Origin: Bryobacteraceae bacterium
GTDB taxonomy: Bacteria; Acidobacteriota; Terriglobia; Bryobacterales; Bryobacteraceae
Direction of reading: 5' to 3'
Length of the DNA stretch: 64,000 bases
Assembly: GCA_019752335.1 (NCBI GenBank)
Contig: JAIEMJ010000024.1
Span: 124,001 to 188,000, forward strand
Shown one piece after another: positions 34,101 through 47,094 of the stretch (positions are counted from its first letter, which is position 1; each line of letters starts with the position of its first letter). The position numbers and the translations under genes are program-made. The notes below the pieces were generated by a model. The model saw only the letters and a list, made by a program, of their open reading frames with translations, was not told the DNA's origin and made no database searches.

Positions 34101-35507
34101 ATGCTGCGCGTTCGTTTTGCCCCCTCACCCACCGGCTACCTGCATATTGGCAGCGCCCGGACCTTTATCTTCAACTGGCTCTATGCCCGGCGGCACGGGG
34201 GGACCGTGGTACTCCGGCTCGACGACACCGACGTCGAGCGCAACACGCAAGCCTCGGTCGATTCGATTTTCGACGGCTTGAACTGGCTGAACCTGGGCTG
34301 GGACGAGTTCTACCGCCAAAGCGACCGCCTGGCCTTGCACCGTGCGGCCGCGGAGACGATTCTGCGGAAGGGGCTCGCTTATCGCGACTTTACCGAGGCG
34401 CGGGCGGCCGAGGAGTCCGACGTTACCAGTGGCTGGCTTTTTAACCCCGGCATGCGTGAGTTGACCCCCGAGGAGAGTGACCGCCGTGCCCAGGACGGCG
34501 AACCCTTTGTGCTGCGGTACCGCGTGCCGCGAGGCGAGAAGCATGTCGTGGCGTTTGCCGATGGCGTCTTCGGAAAGCAGACCAAGCTTGCGCAGGACAT
34601 CGAGGACTTTGCCCTGCTCCGCTCGAACGGCATGCCGACGTATCATCTGGCCTCCTGCGCTGATGACGTCGATCTGAAGATCACGCAGATCATCCGCGGG
34701 CAGGATCACCTCACGAACACCTTCAAGCACGTGCTCATTTTCGAAGCGTTGGGCGGCGACATGCCCAAATTCGCCCACTTGCCGCTGCTGATCGCGCCCG
34801 ACGGCGCGAAGCTTTCGAAGCGTAAACACGGGCCCGTGGTGAGCGTGACGACCTATCGCGACGCCGGCTTCCTGCCGCATAGCTATGTGAATTTCCTCTG
34901 CCTGCTGGGCTGGTCGCCGAAGAATGACCGCGAGCAGATGTCGCGCCAGGAACTGATCGACGCGTTTGGCTTTGAAGGGATCAACCGTTCGAACGCCGTG
35001 GTGAACTTCTCGGAGGAGTCGCCCATCGATCCGAAGGCGCAGTGGCTGAATGGCCAGCATTTGCGCACGATGCCGCTCGACGAGTTGCTGCCTTTGGTGG
35101 CGCCGTCGTTGCCGCCGCAGGAGGATGCGGAGCGATTTCGCTTCACCGTCGACGCCGTGCGGCAGCGCTTCACCTCCTTGCACGACTTCGCCACGCGCGG
35201 ACGCGGCTACTTCTTCGCGGACTTCGAGATTGACCCCAGCGCGCTCGACAAGCTGAATCAACCGCAAGCCCGCGTGTTGCTGGCGCAGTTGGGTGAACGG
35301 CTGGAGCAGATTCCGGAGTTCTCCGAAGCGATCTGCGAGGCGGAACTGCGCAAGCTGGCGGAAGAGCGCGGCGTGAAGCCGGGGCTGTTGATCAACGCGA
35401 GCCGCGTGGCGCTGACGGGCCAGGCGGTGGGTCCTTCGGCCTTCGTCGTCTTCAGTTGTGTGGGACGCGAGCGAGTGATTGAACGCTTGAAAAGGGTACG
35501 GGCATGA
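34101..35507 (+). CDS. gltX: Glutamyl-tRNA synthetase
   Basis: Class I synthetase charging tRNA-Glu (and perhaps tRNA-Gln). The HIGH motif is HIGS at residues 15-18 in APSPTGYLHIGSARTF, the KMSKS motif is KLSKR at about residues 236-240, and the DRFDDTD-like LRLDDTD element is present. At 468 aa it is full length. GGAGG precedes the ATG. The last four bases overlap the next gene (ATGA). Confidence 0.96.
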   Translation: MLRVRFAPSPTGYLHIGSARTFIFNWLYARRHGGTVVLRLDDTDVERNTQASVDSIFDGLNWLNLGWDEFYRQSDRLALHRAAAETILRKGLAYRDFTEARAAEESDVTSGWLFNPGMRELTPEESDRRAQDGEPFVLRYRVPRGEKHVVAFADGVFGKQTKLAQDIEDFALLRSNGMPTYHLASCADDVDLKITQIIRGQDHLTNTFKHVLIFEALGGDMPKFAHLPLLIAPDGAKLSKRKHGPVVSVTTYRDAGFLPHSYVNFLCLLGWSPKNDREQMSRQELIDAFGFEGINRSNAVVNFSEESPIDPKAQWLNGQHLRTMPLDELLPLVAPSLPPQEDAERFRFTVDAVRQRFTSLHDFATRGRGYFFADFEIDPSALDKLNQPQARVLLAQLGERLEQIPEFSEAICEAELRKLAEERGVKPGLLINASRVALTGQAVGPSAFVVFSCVGRERVIERLKRVRA

Positions 35508-36997
35508 TGATTTTAGGCATTGGCGGCCTCACGAATGACGCCGCTTGCGCGATTCTGCGCGACGGCGAACTGGTGGGCGCGCTCGAAGAAGACAAATTGC
35601 GGCATGGTCCGCCGGGGCAGTTGCCGGAAGCGGCCATGGCGGGCTGTTTGCAGTTGGCCGGCGCGACGCCGCAGGACATTGGCTGGATCGCGATCGCCAA
35701 GCCCTTCGACACGCAGTTTCACGTCGAACTGCGGAGCCGTTTTCCGCGCGCGCGGATCGCGCTGGTGGAGCACCATCGCGCACACGCCGCCTCGGCCTTC
35801 TATCTGTCGGGCCACAGCGCGGCCACCGTTCTCACGCTGGACCGCAAGGGCGACTCCCGCTGCGGCGCCCGTTGGAGCGGCCAAGGCACCACGCTGACGC
35901 TCCAGGAAGAGGCCATCTTTCCTGACTCGCTTGGCGAACTCTACAGCCGCGTGACGCGCATGCTGGGCTTCACGCCTAATGCGGACGAGCATAAAGTGCA
36001 GTGGATGTCGGCGGCGGGGCAGCCTCGCTACCGGGAGCTGTTCGCGAGCATGATTGAGTCGAGTGAGGGCACCTGGGCGCGCCTGGATCTCTCTCGTCTG
36101 GAGCAAGTGGCGCTGACGAATCCGCAGGACGTGGCCGCGTCGCTGCAGCGCGCCGTGGAGGACGCGGTGTTGCGCATGGCGGGCCACGGCGAAAACCTAT
36201 GCCTCGCCGGCGGACTCTTCCAAAACGCGATGCTCGTCGCGGCGCTCGAGCGTTCCGGCCATTGGCGCCGGGTCTTCGTGCAGCCGGCCGCGGGCAACGC
36301 CGGCACCGCGCTGGGCGCGGCCGCGCACGCCTGGCACGAAGTTTTGCATGAGACGCGCCCGATTCCCTTTCCCACGCTGGCCCTCGGGCCGAGCTACACG
36401 GCGGAAGAGATCAAGCAGGTGGTGGAGAATTGCAAGCTCGGCTTCCGGCTGCTGGGCACCACGAACGAGATGGTCTCGACGGTGGTGGGGCAGTTGGCGG
36501 AGAACAAGATCGTGGCCTGGATGCAGGGCCGCATGGAGTTTGGTCCGCGCGCGCTGGGCTACCGCAGCATTCTGGCTTCGCCGACGGATCCCTACGCCAG
36601 CGAGAACTTGAATCAGTACATCAAGCACCGCGAGGCGTTCCGCAAGTTCGCCGCGTCGGTGCCGGTGGAGTTGGCGGGCGAGTACTTTGAGGCGGGCGAG
36701 AACGCGGGCCACCTGGCCACGATGAGCCGGGTGAAGCCGGCGTACCGCGAGCAGTTCCGCGGCGCGCTGCTGGGCGAGGACGGCATTCGCCTGCACACGG
36801 TGAGCGCGTCGGAGAATCCGCTGTATCACCGGCTCCTGCTCGAAGCGGGGCGCGGCCTGGGCCTGCCGGTGCTCTACAACACGTCGTTTAACCTGTTCGG
36901 CGACCCCATCGTCTGCGGACCACGGGATGCGGTCCGCAGCTTCTATTCCAGCGGGATCGACGCGCTGGCGGTAGGAAATTTTCTGCTGGAGAAGTAA
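35504..36997 (+). CDS. Carbamoyltransferase (NodU/CmcH/TobZ family), short form
   Basis: A 497-aa protein. The N-terminal part has the actin/Kae1-like fold with GIGGLTNDAACAILRDGEL and the EHHRAHAASAF metal/ATP motif, then LCLAGGLFQNA. The C-terminal YrdC-like half contains GRMEFGPRALGYRSILASP and the catalytic LLYNTSFN region. Family members (NodU, CmcH) usually have about 560-600 residues. The shorter form lacks part of the N-terminal domain insert. It makes a carbamoyl-ester from carbamoyl phosphate on an unknown acceptor. It is translationally coupled to gltX, an unusual pairing. Confidence 0.87.
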   Translation: MMILGIGGLTNDAACAILRDGELVGALEEDKLRHGPPGQLPEAAMAGCLQLAGATPQDIGWIAIAKPFDTQFHVELRSRFPRARIALVEHHRAHAASAFYLSGHSAATVLTLDRKGDSRCGARWSGQGTTLTLQEEAIFPDSLGELYSRVTRMLGFTPNADEHKVQWMSAAGQPRYRELFASMIESSEGTWARLDLSRLEQVALTNPQDVAASLQRAVEDAVLRMAGHGENLCLAGGLFQNAMLVAALERSGHWRRVFVQPAAGNAGTALGAAAHAWHEVLHETRPIPFPTLALGPSYTAEEIKQVVENCKLGFRLLGTTNEMVSTVVGQLAENKIVAWMQGRMEFGPRALGYRSILASPTDPYASENLNQYIKHREAFRKFAASVPVELAGEYFEAGENAGHLATMSRVKPAYREQFRGALLGEDGIRLHTVSASENPLYHRLLLEAGRGLGLPVLYNTSFNLFGDPIVCGPRDAVRSFYSSGIDALAVGNFLLEK

Positions 36998-37034
36998 GAC
37001 GGACCCCGTGATCCGGAGTGAGTTGCCTAAACAG

Positions 37035-37055
37035 CCCACCGCGTGAAGCGGTGGG
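37035..37055. repeat. REP-like hairpin, family 2, copy 2, next to decayed transposase
   Basis: CCCACCGC (37035-37042) pairs with GCGGTGGG (37048-37055) over a five-base loop. It belongs to the same family as 4663-4682 and 61102-61121. The decayed HUH transposase gene starts five bases after it, as REP-associated tyrosine transposases usually sit beside their REPs. Confidence 0.78.
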
Positions 37056-37060
37056 GCAAC

Positions 37061-37465
37061 ATGACGTTCAATCTTACATTAACCACGTACGGTACCCGCC
37101 TCCCTGGCGACGGGCGAGGCAATTCGGATCGTCGCGGGGCGCGCATCGAAGTGAGTCCCGCCTTCGAGACCTTCGCCCGGCAGCGATTCTGGAAGTCTGC
37201 GGTCATCGCGGCTGGCACTTGGTGGCTCTGCATGTCCGACCGGAGCACGTGCATGGCTTGGTGAAGGCCGGGGATGCCACCGCGGGCCGGGTGATGGGCG
37301 ATTGGAAGCGCTACTGCAGCCGCGCACTGCGGCTCCACTGGCCCCATCGCCAACAATTCTGGACAGGCGGCGGCTCCACCCGGAGAGTGAAGGGATCCGG
37401 GCTGAATCGCATCGTTGGCCGCATTCTCGACGAACAAGGTACTCGAGACGTACGACGAGAGAGCA
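37061..37465 (+). pseudogene. Decayed HUH (Y1, IS200-like / REP-associated) transposase
   Basis: Reading from the ATG at 37061 gives MTFNLTLTTYGTRLPGDGRG, the normal opening of REP-associated and IS200-like transposases (xxITFxTYGTxLPGD). A frameshift in about 37110-37190 moves the remaining homology to the next frame: ILEVCGHRGWHLVALHVRPEHVHGLV carries the HUH motif (HVH at about 37245), then DWKRYCSRALR and FWTGGGSTRRV. The catalytic Tyr region after this is no longer readable. The gene is therefore non-functional. Confidence 0.78.
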
Positions 37466-37639
37466 GAGCCGCCCCGCTCACGTTAACCCATCGCTCCGGT
37501 CTCGGGGTGTTTGATTTCCGAGCGCACTATTGCGGTGGGCCTCGCTTCGAAGCTGATCTGGTAGCCCTTCGTCCCGAGGAATCGACACTTCGTCGGAAGA
37601 TCCCCCACGTCCGCCGGATGGCGTGCGACACTCGCAAGT

Positions 37640-38566
37640 ATGGCCACCCCGGTAATCTCAGTGAAGGGTCTCGAGAAATCGTACGGCACGTTTCAAGCCG
37701 TACGCGGAATCGACTTTGAAGTCTACCCCGGCGAGGTCTTCGGCCTGCTGGGCCCGAATGGAGCCGGCAAGACGAGTACGGTGGAGATCCTGGAAGGGCT
37801 CCGTCCGCGCTCCGCGGGCGACGTGACGGTGCTGGGTCTCGATCCTGCCGCCGACACTGACTCCTTGAAGGACCGTATCGGCGTGTGCCTGCAGCAAACG
37901 AACCTGCCCGACAAGATGATGGTGATCGAAGCGCTGGAGCTTTTCGCGTCGTTCTACACGAAGACGACGGACCCTCTGGCGATCCTGAAGCGGCTGCAAC
38001 TGGAAGACAAGGCCAAGAGTTTCTACAGCACGCTCTCCGGTGGACAGAAGCAGCGTTTGGCCATCGCGCTGGCGCTGGTGAATGATCCTTCCGTGATCTT
38101 CTTCGACGAGCCCACCACCGGGCTGGATCCGCAGGTGCGGCTCGAAATTCACGCGCTGATTCAGCAACTGCGCGGTGACCAACGCGCGATCATCCTCACC
38201 ACCCATTACATTGAGGAAGCCGAGCGGCTTTGTGATCGGGTGGCCATTGTGGACGAAGGGCGCATTGTCGCCCACGGCACGCCGCGGGAGATTCAAGCGC
38301 GCACTTTAGGCCTTTCCAAGATCGAAGTGGTGACGGCGGAACCCCTGCCGACGCTGCCGGAAGCGGCGGCTTTCTCGGCGGAGAAGCTTGTCGCCGGGGC
38401 CGACGGGAAGTCGCTGACGGTGCTGGCGTCGCGGCCCGCCCCGGCCTTGGTCGAGCTGGTGAAGTGGATTGATATCCAAGGCGTGGAACTGGTCGATGTG
38501 CAACTGAAGCGGCCGACGCTCGAAGATGCGTTTATTGAACTAACCGGAAAGAGCCTGCGCGACTAA
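37640..38566 (+). CDS. ABC transporter ATP-binding protein
   Basis: A 308-aa ATPase of the ABC-2 export type. Walker A GPNGAGKT is at residues 38-45, the signature LSGGQKQ at 132-138, Walker B VIFFDEP at 152-158, then the H-loop TTHYIEEAE. A C-terminal extension of about 90 residues follows, as in ABC-2 ATPases with DrrA-like tails. It is followed by its probable permease, fused to an amidohydrolase. Confidence 0.93.
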   Translation: MATPVISVKGLEKSYGTFQAVRGIDFEVYPGEVFGLLGPNGAGKTSTVEILEGLRPRSAGDVTVLGLDPAADTDSLKDRIGVCLQQTNLPDKMMVIEALELFASFYTKTTDPLAILKRLQLEDKAKSFYSTLSGGQKQRLAIALALVNDPSVIFFDEPTTGLDPQVRLEIHALIQQLRGDQRAIILTTHYIEEAERLCDRVAIVDEGRIVAHGTPREIQARTLGLSKIEVVTAEPLPTLPEAAAFSAEKLVAGADGKSLTVLASRPAPALVELVKWIDIQGVELVDVQLKRPTLEDAFIELTGKSLRD

Positions 38567-38584
38567 CGCAAGGAGAGATTCAGC

Positions 38585-40783
38585 ATGGCCCCTTACTTAG
38601 CCTATATTCGGATGAACCTGCGGCTGACGATGCGCGAGAAGTCGGTCGTCTTTTTCAATTATGTATTTCCGCTGATCTTTTTCTTTGTCTTCTCGATTGC
38701 CTTCCAAGCCGAACGCGGCGGCGTGATCAACATGGTCTTCGCCATGATTCTGGTGATCGGCATTTTGGGCAACGGACTCTTCGGCGGTGGCATTCGCATG
38801 GTGCTGGAGCGCGACGCGAATATTCTGCGGCGCTTCAAAGTAGCGCCAATCTCTCCGGCGCCGATCTTAGTAGCATCTTTGGTCGTGGGACTCGTAAGTT
38901 ACCTGCCCAGCGTCCTGCTCACCTTTTTGATTTCGAAATTCTACTACGGCATGGCGACGCCGGAGCATTGGCCGTCGTTGGTTTTGTTCATCATCATCGC
39001 CGTGGTGGCCTTTCGTTCGATCGGCCTGATCATTGCGTCGGTGGCGAACTCCATGGGCGAGAGCCAGATTCTCACGCAGCTGATCTATTTTCCGATGATG
39101 TTCTTGAGCGGCTCCACTTTTCCCACCTCCAGCTTCCCGAATTGGCTGCAAACGGTGACGCAGTTTATTCCTGCGACGCACATCAATACGGGCGTACAGG
39201 GCATCCTGATTCGCAAAGAATCCTTCGGGGAGAATATCTGGGCGGCGGCGGCGCTCGTGCTCACCACGGCGGTCGCCATTTTCATCTGCATGAAGATCTT
39301 CCGTTGGGAGAAAGAAGAGAAACTCAAGAATTCGGCGAAGCTCTGGGTGGCCGCGGCGCTGCTGCCCTTCGTCGCGATTGGTGTCTATCAGAGCCAGGCG
39401 AAGACAAACCTGACGCGGCAAACGCAGATTGACCGGCAATTGTCGCGCTCCCGCACGCGGCTGATTCGCGACGCGCGGCTGATTTTGGGCGACGGGCGCG
39501 TGATCGAACGCGGCGGAATTCTGATTCGCGACGGCAAGATCGCGCAGATTTTCGAGGGCGCTTCGCCGGAGCCGAAGAGCCTTAACGCCGACACGGTGGA
39601 AGGCGCCGGCAAGACCGTGATGCCCGGCCTGATCGACGCCCACATTCACATCGGAGCGCCGGGGGGCTTTTACGATAACCCGGCCGACTACGCTAAGCCC
39701 AAGCAAGGCGAGCGTGCGCTCGCCGCCTATCTCTACTCCGGCGTTACCGCTACGCGCAGCGTGGGCGACTGGCTCGACGCCGCGCTGGCCTTGCGCAAGA
39801 AGATCGAACAACTGCAGTACATCGGCGCCGACTATGCCACGTGCGGGCCCATCTTCACCGTGGAAGATGGCCACCCGACGGAGCTGATTCGCAATGTGCC
39901 GGCGGCGATGAAAGCCAATGCCCAGGCGCAGTTTGTGCGCCTGCCGAAGTCGCCGGACGAGGCGCGCGGCATGGTGCGGGACTTAAAGAAGGCGGGGGTG
40001 GATTGCATCAAGGGCGTATTTGACGCGGGCCAGCCGGGCTATCGCTTCAATCGCGCGACGCCCGAGCTAATCAACGCCATGGCGGCCGAAGCGAAGAGCC
40101 TGGGCTTGCCGGTGGCGATTCACACGGGAAGCGCGCAGGACGTGGCCGATGCGATTACGGCGGGGGCGAATAGCATTGAGCATGGCTCGATGTCGGAGGC
40201 GATTCCGGATGAGACTTTTGCGCGCATGGCCAAGGCGGATATTGCCTATGACCCCACCTTGAGCGTACTGGAAGGCATGACCGGGTTCGCCACCGGACGC
40301 ACCGAGTTACTCGAATTTTCGTTGGTGCAGCAAGCCGTACCGGCGGGATTGCTGGCCTCGACGCGAAGGTTCATGAATGCGTCGCAGAGTAAAGAGATGC
40401 GCCAGGGTCTGGGCAGTTACAAGATGGATATGAAGATCGCGGGCGATAACCTGGTGCGCGCGCATGCCGCGGGAGTCCGCCTGGTGACCGGGACCGACGC
40501 GGGGAATCCGCTGGTGTTTCATGGGCCCGCCGTCCATCGCGAGATGAAGCTCTGGGTGGCGGCCGGATTACCACCCGGCGCCGCCATCCAAGGGGCGACG
40601 GGAAATGCCGCCAAGTTATTGGGGATTGATCAACGCACGGGCACCCTGGCCGTCGGTAAGGAAGCGACGATTCTGTTGGTGGATGGCAATCCGCTGGCCG
40701 ACATCTCAGCCACCGAGCGGATTACGCTGATCTTGCTCAAGGGTGAACGGATCATTCGGCCGGAGTTATTCACCCAGGAGTAG
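38585..40783 (+). CDS. ABC-2 permease fused to an amidohydrolase
   Basis: One unbroken 732-aa frame. Residues 1-240 form an ABC-2 permease with six TM segments (near 22-39, 47-68, 94-116, 129-151, 158-178 and 219-238). A seventh TM (about 252-268, LWVAAALLPFVAIGVY) leads into an amidohydrolase of the imidazolonepropionase/prolidase-like group: H353 and H355 in DAHIHIG, K476, H513, H533 in SIEHGS, and D638 in TGTDAGN. All expected metal ligands are present, so the enzyme should be active. The seventh TM would place the hydrolase outside the cytoplasm. The partner ATPase is 18 bases upstream. No stop or frameshift is seen at the junction. Confidence 0.88.
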   Translation: MAPYLAYIRMNLRLTMREKSVVFFNYVFPLIFFFVFSIAFQAERGGVINMVFAMILVIGILGNGLFGGGIRMVLERDANILRRFKVAPISPAPILVASLVVGLVSYLPSVLLTFLISKFYYGMATPEHWPSLVLFIIIAVVAFRSIGLIIASVANSMGESQILTQLIYFPMMFLSGSTFPTSSFPNWLQTVTQFIPATHINTGVQGILIRKESFGENIWAAAALVLTTAVAIFICMKIFRWEKEEKLKNSAKLWVAAALLPFVAIGVYQSQAKTNLTRQTQIDRQLSRSRTRLIRDARLILGDGRVIERGGILIRDGKIAQIFEGASPEPKSLNADTVEGAGKTVMPGLIDAHIHIGAPGGFYDNPADYAKPKQGERALAAYLYSGVTATRSVGDWLDAALALRKKIEQLQYIGADYATCGPIFTVEDGHPTELIRNVPAAMKANAQAQFVRLPKSPDEARGMVRDLKKAGVDCIKGVFDAGQPGYRFNRATPELINAMAAEAKSLGLPVAIHTGSAQDVADAITAGANSIEHGSMSEAIPDETFARMAKADIAYDPTLSVLEGMTGFATGRTELLEFSLVQQAVPAGLLASTRRFMNASQSKEMRQGLGSYKMDMKIAGDNLVRAHAAGVRLVTGTDAGNPLVFHGPAVHREMKLWVAAGLPPGAAIQGATGNAAKLLGIDQRTGTLAVGKEATILLVDGNPLADISATERITLILLKGERIIRPELFTQE

Positions 40784-43309: not shown

Positions 43310-43690
43310 TCAATAGAGCCGCTTCAGCTTGAGCAACTGCTTCGTCGACGACCGCTGAAAGACCCCGCCGCTGTTGCCGGCGATGGTGGAGCTTTCGCGG
43401 TCCCTCGCCAATTCCAGCACCCCGTCGCGGAGGGTGCCGGTGTAACGGAGACGCGTGTCGTTGATCTGGTTCCCGCTCTGCTCCTGCACGGCGACGACGA
43501 AGATGACTGCGTCGCCTACGACGCGGCCTTCGCTCAGCGGTGAACTGCCGCGGTCGTCGTAGAGCTTGCCGGTTAGTTTGGTGCCTTGCTGCTCCAGCTT
43601 GAAGGTCACATCCTGTGGACCCAAACGCGTCTGGATTTGGCCCGTCCAGAAGCCCGTCACATCGGCGGCCAGGAACAGCAGCCAGATCAC
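43310..43690 (-). CDS. Secreted protein of unknown function
   Basis: A 126-aa protein with a short N-terminal hydrophobic leader (MIWLLFLAADVTG) and a beta-rich, lipocalin-like pattern: FWTGQIQT, VTFKLEQQGTKLTGKLYD, GRVVGDAVIFVV and LRYTGTLRDGVLELA. Related small beta-barrel proteins are common next to DUF1552/DUF1592 genes. Its start overlaps the DUF1552 stop by four bases. Confidence 0.68.
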   Translation of the reverse strand: MIWLLFLAADVTGFWTGQIQTRLGPQDVTFKLEQQGTKLTGKLYDDRGSSPLSEGRVVGDAVIFVVAVQEQSGNQINDTRLRYTGTLRDGVLELARDRESSTIAGNSGGVFQRSSTKQLLKLKRLY

Positions 43691-44991
43691 GACTTCACCA
43701 AACCGGTCACCGGGCCGGTGCTATCGGCGAAGCGTTCCACCGGCGCGCCGAAGGCATCCAGCATGGAGACATAGAGGTTCGCGAGCGGCGCGTCTTCGCT
43801 CATTACCCAGTGGCGGCCGGTTTCCATGCGCCCGCCGGCGCGGCCGCTTACCAGGATGGGCAACTTATGCGGATCGTGCTTGTTGCCGTCGCTCAAGGCC
43901 GACGCGAACAGCACCATTGAATTGTCGAGCACCGTGCCTTCGCCCTCTTTCATTTCGCTCAAGCGGCGCAAGAGGTAGGCGTACTGCTCGATGTGCCAGC
44001 GGTTGATGAGCTGGTATTGACGGAGCTTGTCGGCGTCCTTCTGGTGATGCGAAACGTCGTGGTGGCCGGCGCTGACGCCCTCGAGCCAACGGAAGCTGAC
44101 GTTGCTGACGGCGTTGCCGAACATGAAGGTGCTGACGCGGGTGGTGTCGGTTTGAAAGGCGACGGCCATCATGTCGAGCATCAGGCGGACGTGCTCGGCA
44201 TGGTCCTTGGGGCGATCGGTCGGGGTGGCTTTGGGGTCGAAGGCGGCGCGGGCCTTCCAGGCCTTCGCTCCACCGGCGCTCGAACGCTGGACGCGCTCTT
44301 CGAGCGAGCGCATCACGGAGAGATACTCGTCGAGGCGGTGCTTGTCGGCTTGCCCGACTTCGCCGCGCAGACGGCGGGCGTCGCCGAGTACCCGGTCCAG
44401 CAGCAGGGTATCGAGCTTGGCGGCGTTGGCGTTCTCGCCATGGGCCGCGCCGAAGAGGCGCTCGTAGACACTCCGCGGGTTGATCTCGCGCGCCAGCGGC
44501 GTCGTTGCGTCGCTCCATGCGATGTGCGACCCATAGACGCGCGTATAGCCCACCACGGCGTCGACACCAATCGCCACCGGCGTCACGCCCAGTTCAAGCG
44601 ACGGCAGCGGCGTCAGCGTTTTCACCTTCAGCGCCGCCTGCTGGTCCAGCGAAATGGCGTTGGCGATATCGGCGCCGGGCGTCTTCTTGATGGTGGCGCA
44701 GGTGAGGATGGCGGCTTCCTTCACATAGTGGCCATCGCCGCCTTTGGAGTTGGCGTTCCAAAAATTGCTGAAGACATTCAGATGGCTCTTGAAGGGCGCC
44801 AGAGGCTCGAGCGTCGGAGTGAGAGCGAAGTCGCGCCCGGCTTCCTTGGGCGTCCAAGCGTCGACGTTGACGCCGTTGGGCATGTAGAGCGCGGCCAGGC
44901 GCACAGGCGGCGCGTCCGGCGCGGCGGCGCCTTCGAGCCAGGGCAGACTCAAGGCCACACCAGCCCCCTGCAATAACGAACGGCGCTTCAT
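43687..44991 (-). CDS. DUF1552 domain protein (Tat-exported)
   Basis: A 434-aa protein that begins MKRRSLLQGAGVALSLPWLEG, a twin-arginine signal, then RLAALYMPNGVN, the standard DUF1552 opening. GHHDVSHHQKD and GEGTVLDNSMVLFASALSDGN give the family's C-terminal half, and the architecture resembles the sulfatase/alkaline phosphatase fold. It always occurs with DUF1592-type cytochrome proteins; here it starts four bases within the end of that gene. Confidence 0.92.
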   Translation of the reverse strand: MKRRSLLQGAGVALSLPWLEGAAAPDAPPVRLAALYMPNGVNVDAWTPKEAGRDFALTPTLEPLAPFKSHLNVFSNFWNANSKGGDGHYVKEAAILTCATIKKTPGADIANAISLDQQAALKVKTLTPLPSLELGVTPVAIGVDAVVGYTRVYGSHIAWSDATTPLAREINPRSVYERLFGAAHGENANAAKLDTLLLDRVLGDARRLRGEVGQADKHRLDEYLSVMRSLEERVQRSSAGGAKAWKARAAFDPKATPTDRPKDHAEHVRLMLDMMAVAFQTDTTRVSTFMFGNAVSNVSFRWLEGVSAGHHDVSHHQKDADKLRQYQLINRWHIEQYAYLLRRLSEMKEGEGTVLDNSMVLFASALSDGNKHDPHKLPILVSGRAGGRMETGRHWVMSEDAPLANLYVSMLDAFGAPVERFADSTGPVTGLVKS

Positions 44992-46868
44992 GGTTTCGTA
45001 CCTTTCACCGGCGGTTGACCGGCCTGGAAGCGAAACGGCACGCTGGTGACGATCGCTTCGATGAGGGCTTGCGCCCGGTAATCGTTTTGGCGCGTGTAGG
45101 CCACGATTTGGTCCACGGCGCAGGAGTCAGCTAAGGTGAGCCCGCGGCCGAGCGCGTAGCCCAGCATGCGGTTGGCGAGGTTGCGAATGACGAGGTCCTT
45201 GCGCTCCAGCAGGACCTTGCGCAAGGCGTCCGGCCCGGCGATCTTGGTGCCGTCGGCCAGTTCGCCGGAGTTGTCCACCGGCTGGCCGGCCTCTTCGTCG
45301 CGCCAGCGACCAAGGACGTCGTAGTTTTCGAGCGCGAAGCCGAGCGGGTCAATGCGGCTGTGGCAACTCGCACAGACTGTATTCGCGCGATGCTGCGTCA
45401 GGCGGGCGCGCATGGTCTTAGGCGGCGCGCCCGGCTGGTCGGTCTCCAAGGCCGGTACATCGGGCGGCGGCGGCGGGGGCGGTGTACCCAGCAACGAATC
45501 GAGAATCCAGGCGCCGCGCAACACCGGGCTGGTGCGGTACGGATACGACGACACGGTGAGCACCGCACCCATGCCCAGCAGGCCACCACGACGGCTGCCC
45601 TCGGGCACGGCCACCCATTGCGGCTGCGTGTTGGCGTTCTGGTTGAGCGGCATGTTGACGTTGTAGAGCTTGTTGAGGTGGCGCGTGCTGATGGTGTGGG
45701 TGGAGTCGATCAGATTGAGCAGAGACAGATCGCGGGCCAGCAGTTCGCGCAGGAAGAGCACAGGCTGCAAGCGGACATCGCTGCGGACGTCCTCGTCGCC
45801 CGCATAAGCGGCGAAGAGCTTGGCGTCGGGCGCCTTGTCGCCCATCAGGTCGCGGGTGTGTAGCCACTGTTCGGTGAAGCGGCGGGCGAACTCGAGTGAA
45901 CGGTCATTGCGTAGCATCAGGCCGATGAGCGGCTTGAGGACGGCGGGATCCTGTAGCTTCCCGGCGGCGGCCAGGTCGGTGAGCAGGTCGTCGGGCGCGG
46001 TGCCCCACAGGAAGTAGGAGAGGCGAGAGGCCATCGAATACTGGTCCACCAGACGCGGCGTGGGCAGCGGATTCTGGGGTTCGGTGCGGAAGAGAAACAG
46101 GGGCGACACGAGCGCGCCGCGCAGCGAAAAGAAGATGGCCGGCTCGAAAGGTTGCCCCTGGCGCATGGCGGAGTCGAACAAAGCCAGGTATGGCGTAAGG
46201 TCGGCTTCGCCTACGGGACGGCGGAAGGCGCGCGGCAGGAAGTTCGCGAAGATCTTGCGCGCGGCCTGTTGCGGCGAGACGCCCGGGCCGGGCTTCGCGA
46301 CGAGAATCTTGTAGCGCGACTTGAACTCGCGTCCGGCGAAGTCCATGGCAAACTTGGCGGCAGCCATGTACTTCTCGGCGTGCAGCGGCGAAAGGAACAA
46401 CGTTTCGGCCGCATTGTCGAAGCCTTCGCCGCCCGCGCCGTCCACCGGCAAAGAGGCGCCGATGTCCATGTGCATGTCGAGCAGATCGCGCAGGGTGGCC
46501 GTATACTCGTCGCGATTCAAACGGCGGATCGGCGCGCGGCTGGGCTGCACGGGACCGGTGCCGCAGACCTCCGTATGCAAGGCCTCGTCCACCCAAGTAG
46601 TGAAGCGTTCGCGGGCGTCGAGGGGCGGGGCGGGTGAGCCTTTCGGCGGCATCTCGCCGTTGCGGACGCGGTTGGCGAGCGCGGACCACTGGCGCGAGTT
46701 GCCGCGCAGCGAGCCGGGGTCGGCCACTTGCTTCAGGGCGAAGCCGCCCACGGCGGTCTGATGGCACTTCGCGCAGTACTGCTGGAGGAAAGCCTGCCCT
46801 TCGGTAAAGGGGGCCTCCGCAGCCAGCAGCGACATGGCGAACAGCGCCGTTAACATTCTCTTCATCAT
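44988..46868 (-). CDS. DUF1592/DUF1588/DUF1587/DUF1595/DUF1585 protein with N-terminal cytochrome c domain
   Basis: A 626-aa exported protein. The start is set at the tandem ATG at 46868, giving a signal peptide (MLTALFAMSLLAAEA); the frame is open further upstream but without family sequence. A planctomycete-type cytochrome C motif CAKCHQ follows, then DUF1587 (RRLNRDEYTATLRDLL), DUF1595, DUF1592 (SMASRLSYFLWGTAPDDLL), DUF1588 (RRGGLLGMGAVLTVSSYPYRTSPVLRGAWIL and CASCHSRIDPLGFALENYD) and DUF1585 (LVIRNLANRMLGYALGRGL). The domains function together with DUF1552; substrates are unknown. Its first 65 bases are partly duplicated at 48523-48570. Confidence 0.92.
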   Translation of the reverse strand: MMKRMLTALFAMSLLAAEAPFTEGQAFLQQYCAKCHQTAVGGFALKQVADPGSLRGNSRQWSALANRVRNGEMPPKGSPAPPLDARERFTTWVDEALHTEVCGTGPVQPSRAPIRRLNRDEYTATLRDLLDMHMDIGASLPVDGAGGEGFDNAAETLFLSPLHAEKYMAAAKFAMDFAGREFKSRYKILVAKPGPGVSPQQAARKIFANFLPRAFRRPVGEADLTPYLALFDSAMRQGQPFEPAIFFSLRGALVSPLFLFRTEPQNPLPTPRLVDQYSMASRLSYFLWGTAPDDLLTDLAAAGKLQDPAVLKPLIGLMLRNDRSLEFARRFTEQWLHTRDLMGDKAPDAKLFAAYAGDEDVRSDVRLQPVLFLRELLARDLSLLNLIDSTHTISTRHLNKLYNVNMPLNQNANTQPQWVAVPEGSRRGGLLGMGAVLTVSSYPYRTSPVLRGAWILDSLLGTPPPPPPPDVPALETDQPGAPPKTMRARLTQHRANTVCASCHSRIDPLGFALENYDVLGRWRDEEAGQPVDNSGELADGTKIAGPDALRKVLLERKDLVIRNLANRMLGYALGRGLTLADSCAVDQIVAYTRQNDYRAQALIEAIVTSVPFRFQAGQPPVKGTKP

Positions 46869-46878
46869 TTTAATCCCG
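46814..46878. repeat. Direct repeat copy A (at the start of the DUF1592 gene)
   Basis: The start-proximal DNA of the DUF1592 gene. Its first 25 bases match 48523-48547 with one mismatch, a 16-base block is missing in the other copy, and the rest (ATTCTCTT...ATTTTAATCC) matches again. Together the copies flank 1.6 kb of accessory DNA. Confidence 0.85.
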
Positions 46879-46968
46879 CAACGGGTCCATCTGTGAGGGT
46901 GCGGCGGAGTCGTTCTTATCTTTCTCAAATCGTGGCTTATGCTAGAAGGAGAACCTGGAGGCTTGCAC

Positions 46969-47094
46969 ATGCTGGAGCGAGTGGAATTGAGAAACTTTGG
47001 CCCGTTGTCCAAGCTGGATTGGCGTTCTCTGGGGAAAATCAATCTTGTGATTGGCGGGAATTGGCAGCGTACCGCAGTTCGACATTTTCGATGA
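46969..47094 (+). pseudogene. N-terminal remnant of an AAA ATPase (OLD/AAA_15-like)
   Basis: A GGAGG site (46957-46961) and ATG open a frame encoding MLERVELRNFGPL, SLGKINLVIGGN, the usual start of AAA_15/OLD-like ATPases whose next residues should be the Walker-A GxGKT. Here homology ends exactly at GGN, and the frame stops after 41 residues. The stop overlaps the start of the DUF2971 gene (ATGA). The C-terminal end of such an ATPase lies at 48123-48212 beyond that gene, so the ATPase was disrupted. Confidence 0.78.

Follow-up and report, generated by a model that had tools for sequence, protein, structure and literature searches.

Does an exporter that carries a hydrolase at its C-terminus carry it in order to cut what it exports? 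This question is raised by a single reading frame in the window, by which we mean the whole 64,000-nucleotide stretch of Bryobacteraceae DNA that was analyzed. According to the original prediction, made from the letters alone, this frame combines the six transmembrane helices of an exporter, one further helix and an amidohydrolase whose metal ligands are all present, and the reading frame, Pfam matches, hydropathy and alignments bear out that architecture. We put the odds at about one in two that the protein belongs to an exporter with an outer, amidohydrolase-derived domain that is catalytic here and also has a second, non-catalytic role. What is new is the fate of the enzyme in relatives, where the active site has been lost repeatedly and the scaffold retained.

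The fused frame and its ATPase partner

The frame encoding the fused ABC-2 permease/amidohydrolase (38585–40783, + strand, as are all features below that make up the gene pair) starts with ATG, has no internal stops and specifies 732 residues; a Shine-Dalgarno-like AAGGAG precedes it at 38570–38575. The permease domain (aa 1–245; 38585–39319), which matches Pfam ABC2_membrane over aa 8–208 (4e-20; 72.7 bits against a cut-off of 26.9), comprises six helices and ends in a conserved FRWE motif, of which R240 and W241 are invariant in a seven-member alignment that includes distant fusions. A seventh hydrophobic helix (aa 253–271; 39341–39397) and a linker (aa 272–290; 39398–39454), whose R284 and R288 are conserved even without catalysis, lead into the amidohydrolase domain (aa 291–732; 39455–40780). 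This domain was identified by Pfam Amidohydro_1 (aa 344–721; 3.1e-29; 102.7 bits against a cut-off of 25) and by sequence matches to solved structures, and it is of the branch named cog1228. Its ligand set is complete, with codons verified in the sequence and columns in homologues: the HxH pair H353 and H355 (39641–39649), the metal-bridging lysine K476 (40010–40012), H513 (40121–40123), H533 (40181–40183) and D638, a metal ligand or catalytic residue (40496–40498). The C-terminal scaffold (40520–40780), defined by column conservation as HGP..H.E..L..AG and then EATLLLVDGNPL.DI..TERI..GER..R, is retained in relatives after active-site loss.

The fusion in the window protein is real, and it is old. 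A sister genome has the equivalent frame at 81% identity (dN/dS of 0.06 in the permease, 0.12 in the enzyme part), and many genera contain fused frames of full length, so that the same architecture is indeed found elsewhere and the fusion is more than chance; the recurrence also rules out a sequencing or assembly artefact. The fused gene is single-copy in its genome, the other hits among the 12 matches listed being partial matches to other amidohydrolases or permeases. We found no PHROG matches that would indicate a phage origin, and among the 33 plasmid records that were matched, none had a single place covering 80% of the query. AlphaFold models of the window protein and related loci, built with five sequences per model, had mean pLDDT values of 47.3 and 40.0, implying low confidence.

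Genome searches spanned the family, the class and the phylum. Within the window's family, 160 of 237 genomes, in 47 of 76 genera, match at E ≤ 1e-45. A separate scan of genome contigs gave four loci; by their record labels, the sister locus (L038) is from Bryobacter sp., L041 from a Bryobacterales bacterium and L040 from Candidatus Sulfopaludibacter. The fusion is rarer outside the family. The 399 genomes of the class yielded fused matches outside the family in G326, G352 and G355, the first of which has 9% contamination, so its match may be stray. Both parts were matched by profile in four of 396 genomes of the phylum (G000, G874, G720 and G867), and in G867 the two parts are two genes split by a TAG.

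Directly upstream, a DrrA/NodI-like ABC ATPase gene (37640–38566; ABC_tran, 1e-28) ends 18 bases before the permease ATG, and reading its sequence shows GPNGAGKT (Walker A), LSGGQ (signature) and DEPT (Walker B). Of 110 related loci, 106 have a same-strand ATPase next to the permease; three of the remaining four have merely 2, 17 and 274 bases of upstream sequence. The best NCBIfam matches are drrA (2.8e-72; 243.6 against a curated cut-off of 312.45) and drrB (55.1 against 223.05), both of them below their cut-offs, as are nodI (180 against 424) and nodJ (31.8 against 206.65). The pair thus resembles the DrrAB and NodIJ ABC-2 exporters in being a two-gene ATPase and ABC-2 permease system, and differs from them in its sub-cut-off scores, its seventh helix and its attached outer domain. 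We propose that the ATPase would drive a homodimeric permease, the dimer being assumed from the ABC-2 fold class.

Nod-factor export, hinted at by a NodU-like neighbor, finds no support in the sub-cut-off NodI and NodJ scores. The neighbor itself, a carbamoyltransferase gene at 35504–36997, adjoins a glutamyl-tRNA synthetase gene; its N-terminal profile match begins at position 124 of 346, and it may be shortened. An ORF with a weak IS200/Y1 transposase match (37018–37719) overlaps the start of the ATPase gene, and a perfect hairpin at 37035–37056, present in two genome copies (one with a single mismatch), is reminiscent of a REP-associated transposase. Beyond the fused gene, adjacent genes at 43687–47042 have DUF1552 and PSD/PSCyt cytochrome domains, a pair known from Planctomycetes-type gene sets.

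Across related loci, a survey of flanks of a few kb, made with a crude gene caller and including one large cluster that was an antisense artefact, found that the ATPase alone recurs widely; 24 of 112 loci have an upstream gene that by eye is DJ-1/PfpI-like. These neighborhoods bear on the idea that the system combines efflux with detoxification, a toxic amide being exported and inactivated outside and the enzyme being lost where the toxic compound is lost. The ATPase and permease do score on the daunorubicin-resistance models DrrA and DrrB, though below cut-offs, and ochratoxin-degrading amidohydrolases are among the solved relatives of the enzyme. We nevertheless regard this explanation as improbable: the conserved neighbors seen in those few-kb flanks, with that gene caller, include no gene for resistance or biosynthesis, and the conserved remnants described below would be left unexplained.

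Topology and likely chemistry

The six ABC-2 helices fit the family-averaged hydropathy, which also shows a seventh, weaker hydrophobic segment with its maximum at aa 262 (by a simple scan with helix limits chosen by the analyst, not a trained topology predictor). Hydropathy and charge together agree with an ABC-2 permease whose N-terminus is inside, in which case helix 7 would bring the enzyme out. The mean number of K and R residues is 7.3 after helix 7 versus 4.9 before it, and because the linker after the helix is positive, the charge rule alone is ambiguous on topology. This strongly positive linker would suit a cytoplasmic enzyme that processes its substrate before export, with helix 7 not crossing the membrane. 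That arrangement appears very unlikely to us when the free relatives of the enzyme are considered: all seven of the free-standing relatives inspected in other genomes (L031–L037) begin, by eye, with an apparent signal peptide, and the homologues in the two unfused operons carry a membrane anchor at the N-terminus. These relatives make it most likely that the enzyme lies outside the membrane, as originally predicted. The permease C-terminus would then cross the membrane a seventh time and carry on the outer face a domain that may descend from a secreted cog1228-type amidohydrolase.

The seventh helix is also found without the fusion. Permease-only relatives either end just after helix 7 (L069, L096, L098 and L099) or have a short tail after it (L027, L154, L155 and L170), so that this helix belongs to the permease family.

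The best solved-structure matches of the domain are a possible prolidase (2p9b), the arginine carboxypeptidase Cc2672 (3mtw) and an Xaa-Pro dipeptidase (2qs8), with cyclic amidohydrolases among the more distant ones; the score on the Xaa-Pro dipeptidase model NF051886 (168.1 bits) is below the curated cut-off of 500. Since the best solved relatives are named as prolidase or arginine-carboxypeptidase types, they do not favor the beta-lactam or cyclic amide substrates first suggested. Aminoacylases and ochratoxinase are of the same cog1228 branch. By analogy only, these relatives of the domain point to amides with a free carboxylate. The cog1228 amidohydrolases (prolidases, Cc2672, aminoacylases and metallo bile-salt hydrolases) have the same HxH, K, H, H, D set; none of the solved chains matched was matched together with an ABC-2 permease, unlike the window protein, and the searches made found no fused cog1228 member described elsewhere. 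Because the whole binuclear metal site is kept, the window domain probably cleaves an amide bond, perhaps of an N-acyl-amino-acid or dipeptide-like compound, at or near the exporter mouth; the window protein is thus probably an active enzyme on an exporter.

The statement that no characterized protein has such a design stands in part. Our search, which covered the open-access literature, found no paper describing the fusion or close variants; automatic annotation of such proteins likely exists. An analogous design is nonetheless in print: in ZmaM, a prodrug peptidase is joined to an ABC half-transporter (PMC9889268), and ZmaM-type fusions (zwittermicin; EdeA, PamJ) likewise combine an exporter part and an extracytoplasmic amide-cutting hydrolase in one protein. 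According to the same source, those proteins consist of an N-terminal serine peptidase of the beta-lactamase superfamily and an ABC half-transporter and lie in biosynthetic clusters, whereas the window system has an ABC-2 permease, a C-terminal metal amidohydrolase, a separate ATPase and no conserved cluster in the flanks examined. Pfam found no PF00144 peptidase domain in the fused protein, and the likeness to ZmaM is one of analogy only.

Repeated loss of the active site and selection on the remnant

We collected frames from 156 family genomes, at least four matching genomes (G089, G094, G150 and G228) having yielded none; with seven frames cut by contig ends excluded beforehand, this left 149 complete permease frames from 46 genera. 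All six ligands are present in 84 of the 149, one is changed in 5, two or more are changed or missing in 57, and the remaining 3 (G027, G074 and G243) end before the enzyme. Of the 57 ligand-losing frames, 34 lack the K476 and H513 columns, and with them the catalytic core, 33 retain no ligand at all, and 40 are shorter than 690 residues. Intact frames occur in 27 of the 46 genera, ligand-losing frames in 23 and both kinds in 6. Some frames are irregular in other ways: two of the 57 (G076 and G217) are broken within the enzyme part, G007 has an early break in the permease, and two of the 84 (G206 and G254) are open frames without about 80 N-terminal residues.

Alignment error is an unlikely source of the ligand losses, given that those very rows do align over the PGLID flank and over the C-terminal motifs and that 40 of the 57 frames are short; single-site differences may depend on the alignment, a few rows (e.g., L025/G024) differing between the 111-row and 156-row versions. 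A sequencing or assembly artefact was rejected for the losses too, as they are seen in single-contig (G182 and G183) and near-closed (G231 and G238) genomes. That ligand loss means loss of catalysis is supported by a 2026 preprint on a related metallo bile-salt hydrolase, in which replacing any one of the six ligands with alanine reportedly abolished activity (PMC13081902). On our best reading, a little more than half of the genomes would still have a catalytic enzyme.

To count the losses on a phylogeny, we used a quick maximum-likelihood tree of permease and linker columns from which the trait's own columns were omitted (107 rows, 48 with at least two ligands lost and 51 intact; L068, L092, L027 and L128 carry a long-branch warning). 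Because its rows were chosen so that almost all ligand-losing cases known by then were in it, the ligand-losing share of this tree is no rate; the census provides that. Parsimony requires 15 changes in ligand state, at least 9 of them forced by well-supported branches, and 11 changes for deletion of the core (33 rows), at least 8 of them so forced; a looser definition gives 17 and 11. Among the supported branches is one that contains 18 ligand-losing rows, drawn from several genera, and not a single intact row. These counts carry no direction, but a deletion of about 100–200 residues is not easily reversed, and ligand loss has recurred within the family.

What remains of the domain is far from random. 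When 40 short and 12 full-length ligand-losing rows were compared with 49 intact rows, G302, G304, G317, G342, T344, P347, D351 and G386, among others, were 80–100% identical in the ligand-losing rows, as were H646, G647, T672, A676, G686, G701, P703, G720 and R725, while the short rows show decay at H353, H355, S392, G394, P422, D638 and N641: conserved positions at the domain edges stay, and the ligands and their neighbors go. Estimated with a simple counting method, dN/dS for aa 301–732 is 0.05–0.24 in 17 ligand-losing pairs and 0.06–0.23 in 11 intact pairs (close relatives chosen by the analyst, several with dS > 1.5, so that the values are rough), and the remnants are under purifying selection. 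The ATPase motifs are about equally frequent in both groups of loci, with Walker A in 46 of 49 ligand-losing and 47 of 51 intact loci and the signature in 48 of 49 and 49 of 51.

Could the remnants be neutral passengers, kept in frame merely by the need for the permease? In each of the 17 ligand-losing pairs (and in 10 of the 11 intact pairs) the domain has a higher dN/dS than the permease, and some lineages have dropped the domain, both as this idea would have it. A passenger could, however, gain stops, yet the short forms span 567–658 aa with near-invariant C-terminal motifs and whole-domain dN/dS never exceeds 0.24, which leads us to give neutrality little credence.

The census and the selection on the remnants also decide how far the original prediction of hydrolysis on exit can be carried. 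It is plausible for the window protein, with its complete ligands; for the family, with 57 of 149 frames having lost at least two ligands, 34 of them without the core, and the remnant under purifying selection, hydrolysis on exit is not supported as the general function. One could still hold that hydrolysis coupled to export is the fusion's whole point and that lineages without ligands are losing the system. The 84 intact frames, the purifying selection on the catalytic core of the intact pairs tested (dN/dS of 0.05–0.30) and the precedent of ZmaM as an exporter-borne cutting enzyme (PMC9889268) speak for this, but it seems unlikely in view of the 57 ligand-losing frames, the supported branch in which 18 such rows of several genera occur without an intact one, and the low dN/dS of the remnants.

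The active site has been destroyed repeatedly and the rest of the domain kept; cutting is therefore probably not all that the domain contributes to the exporter. If the scaffold had a second, non-catalytic role, for example in docking, in gating or in capturing the substrate, this would account for its retention under selection in relatives that have lost ligands or core. For the family as a whole, enzyme activity would be optional and the scaffold would be what selection keeps most widely, which a model of hydrolysis on exit does not predict. With slightly less assurance than we give to the account of the window protein, we suggest that a secreted metallohydrolase was recruited as a permanent outer domain, that its scaffold became a transporter part (gate, substrate receptor or assembly clamp) and that catalysis then became optional and was retired many times. 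There is a partial parallel in an amidohydrolase-superfamily domain likewise retained without catalysis: according to the title of a paper cited in PMC4581275, the ATCase holoenzyme needs an inactive DHOase for its assembly. That pseudo-DHOase belongs to another amidohydrolase branch and has a soluble partner, whereas the window's family lost catalysis repeatedly, often with deletion of the core. If our reading is true, a single bacterial family holds a graded natural set that begins with the active enzyme, passes to forms without ligands and without the core, and ends with permeases that have no such domain. Since some genera contain active as well as inactive versions, this would be a natural experiment in the conversion of an enzyme into a structural component of a transporter. 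It would also offer a defined place to seek an exported amide compound, in a soil group that is large and little studied.

Other fusions, unfused operons and loss of the domain

Permeases of the same family are also found fused to a CIA30-like C-terminal domain (L156:4126–5544, L163:3971–5446, L168:3811–5277 and, by eye, L169); they share the window protein's permease family and differ in the C-terminal extension, which lacks the amidohydrolase. One locus, L092, has both domains. In a tree of the amidohydrolase domain, 18 sampled family fusions form one group (92/97); the L092 amidohydrolase sits beside free ones (94/84), and in the permease tree L092 falls inside the permease–CIA30 group (100/99). 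The L092 lineage thus likely represents a second, independent fusion event. If our reading of the window protein is right, ABC-2 exporters would also be shown to evolve accessory outer domains by fusion, be it an amidohydrolase, CIA30 or both.

The original prediction had named a gene boundary at the junction in homologues as evidence against the fusion, and such boundaries do exist in two distant operons and, as a stop, in one family member, though not in the window genome or its sister. In G573 (L095), genes for an anchored amidohydrolase–CIA30 protein, the ATPase and the permease are consecutive. In G867 (L229:2089–5816), the ATPase, permease and anchored amidohydrolase–CIA30 genes are collinear in this order, and the last two genes are in the same frame, separated by one TAG; this arrangement is a possible picture of the step before fusion. 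In G243 (L185), a TAG follows 267 aa at the junction, and the enzyme part continues in frame downstream. The link between permease and amidohydrolase is not universal, since none of 20 non-fused permease loci has an amidohydrolase match in its flanks.

The domain is also dispensable somewhere, because three of the 149 frames end before the enzyme and three Acidobacteria loci of family f11 (L096–L098) are permease-only. In the permease tree, permease-only L096–L099 and L072 sit among fused rows, with support that is partly weak, which suggests domain loss. At one such locus (L099:2779–3768, in G074), the permease ends just after helix 7 and no amidohydrolase lies nearby; other members of its genus (g50) are fused.
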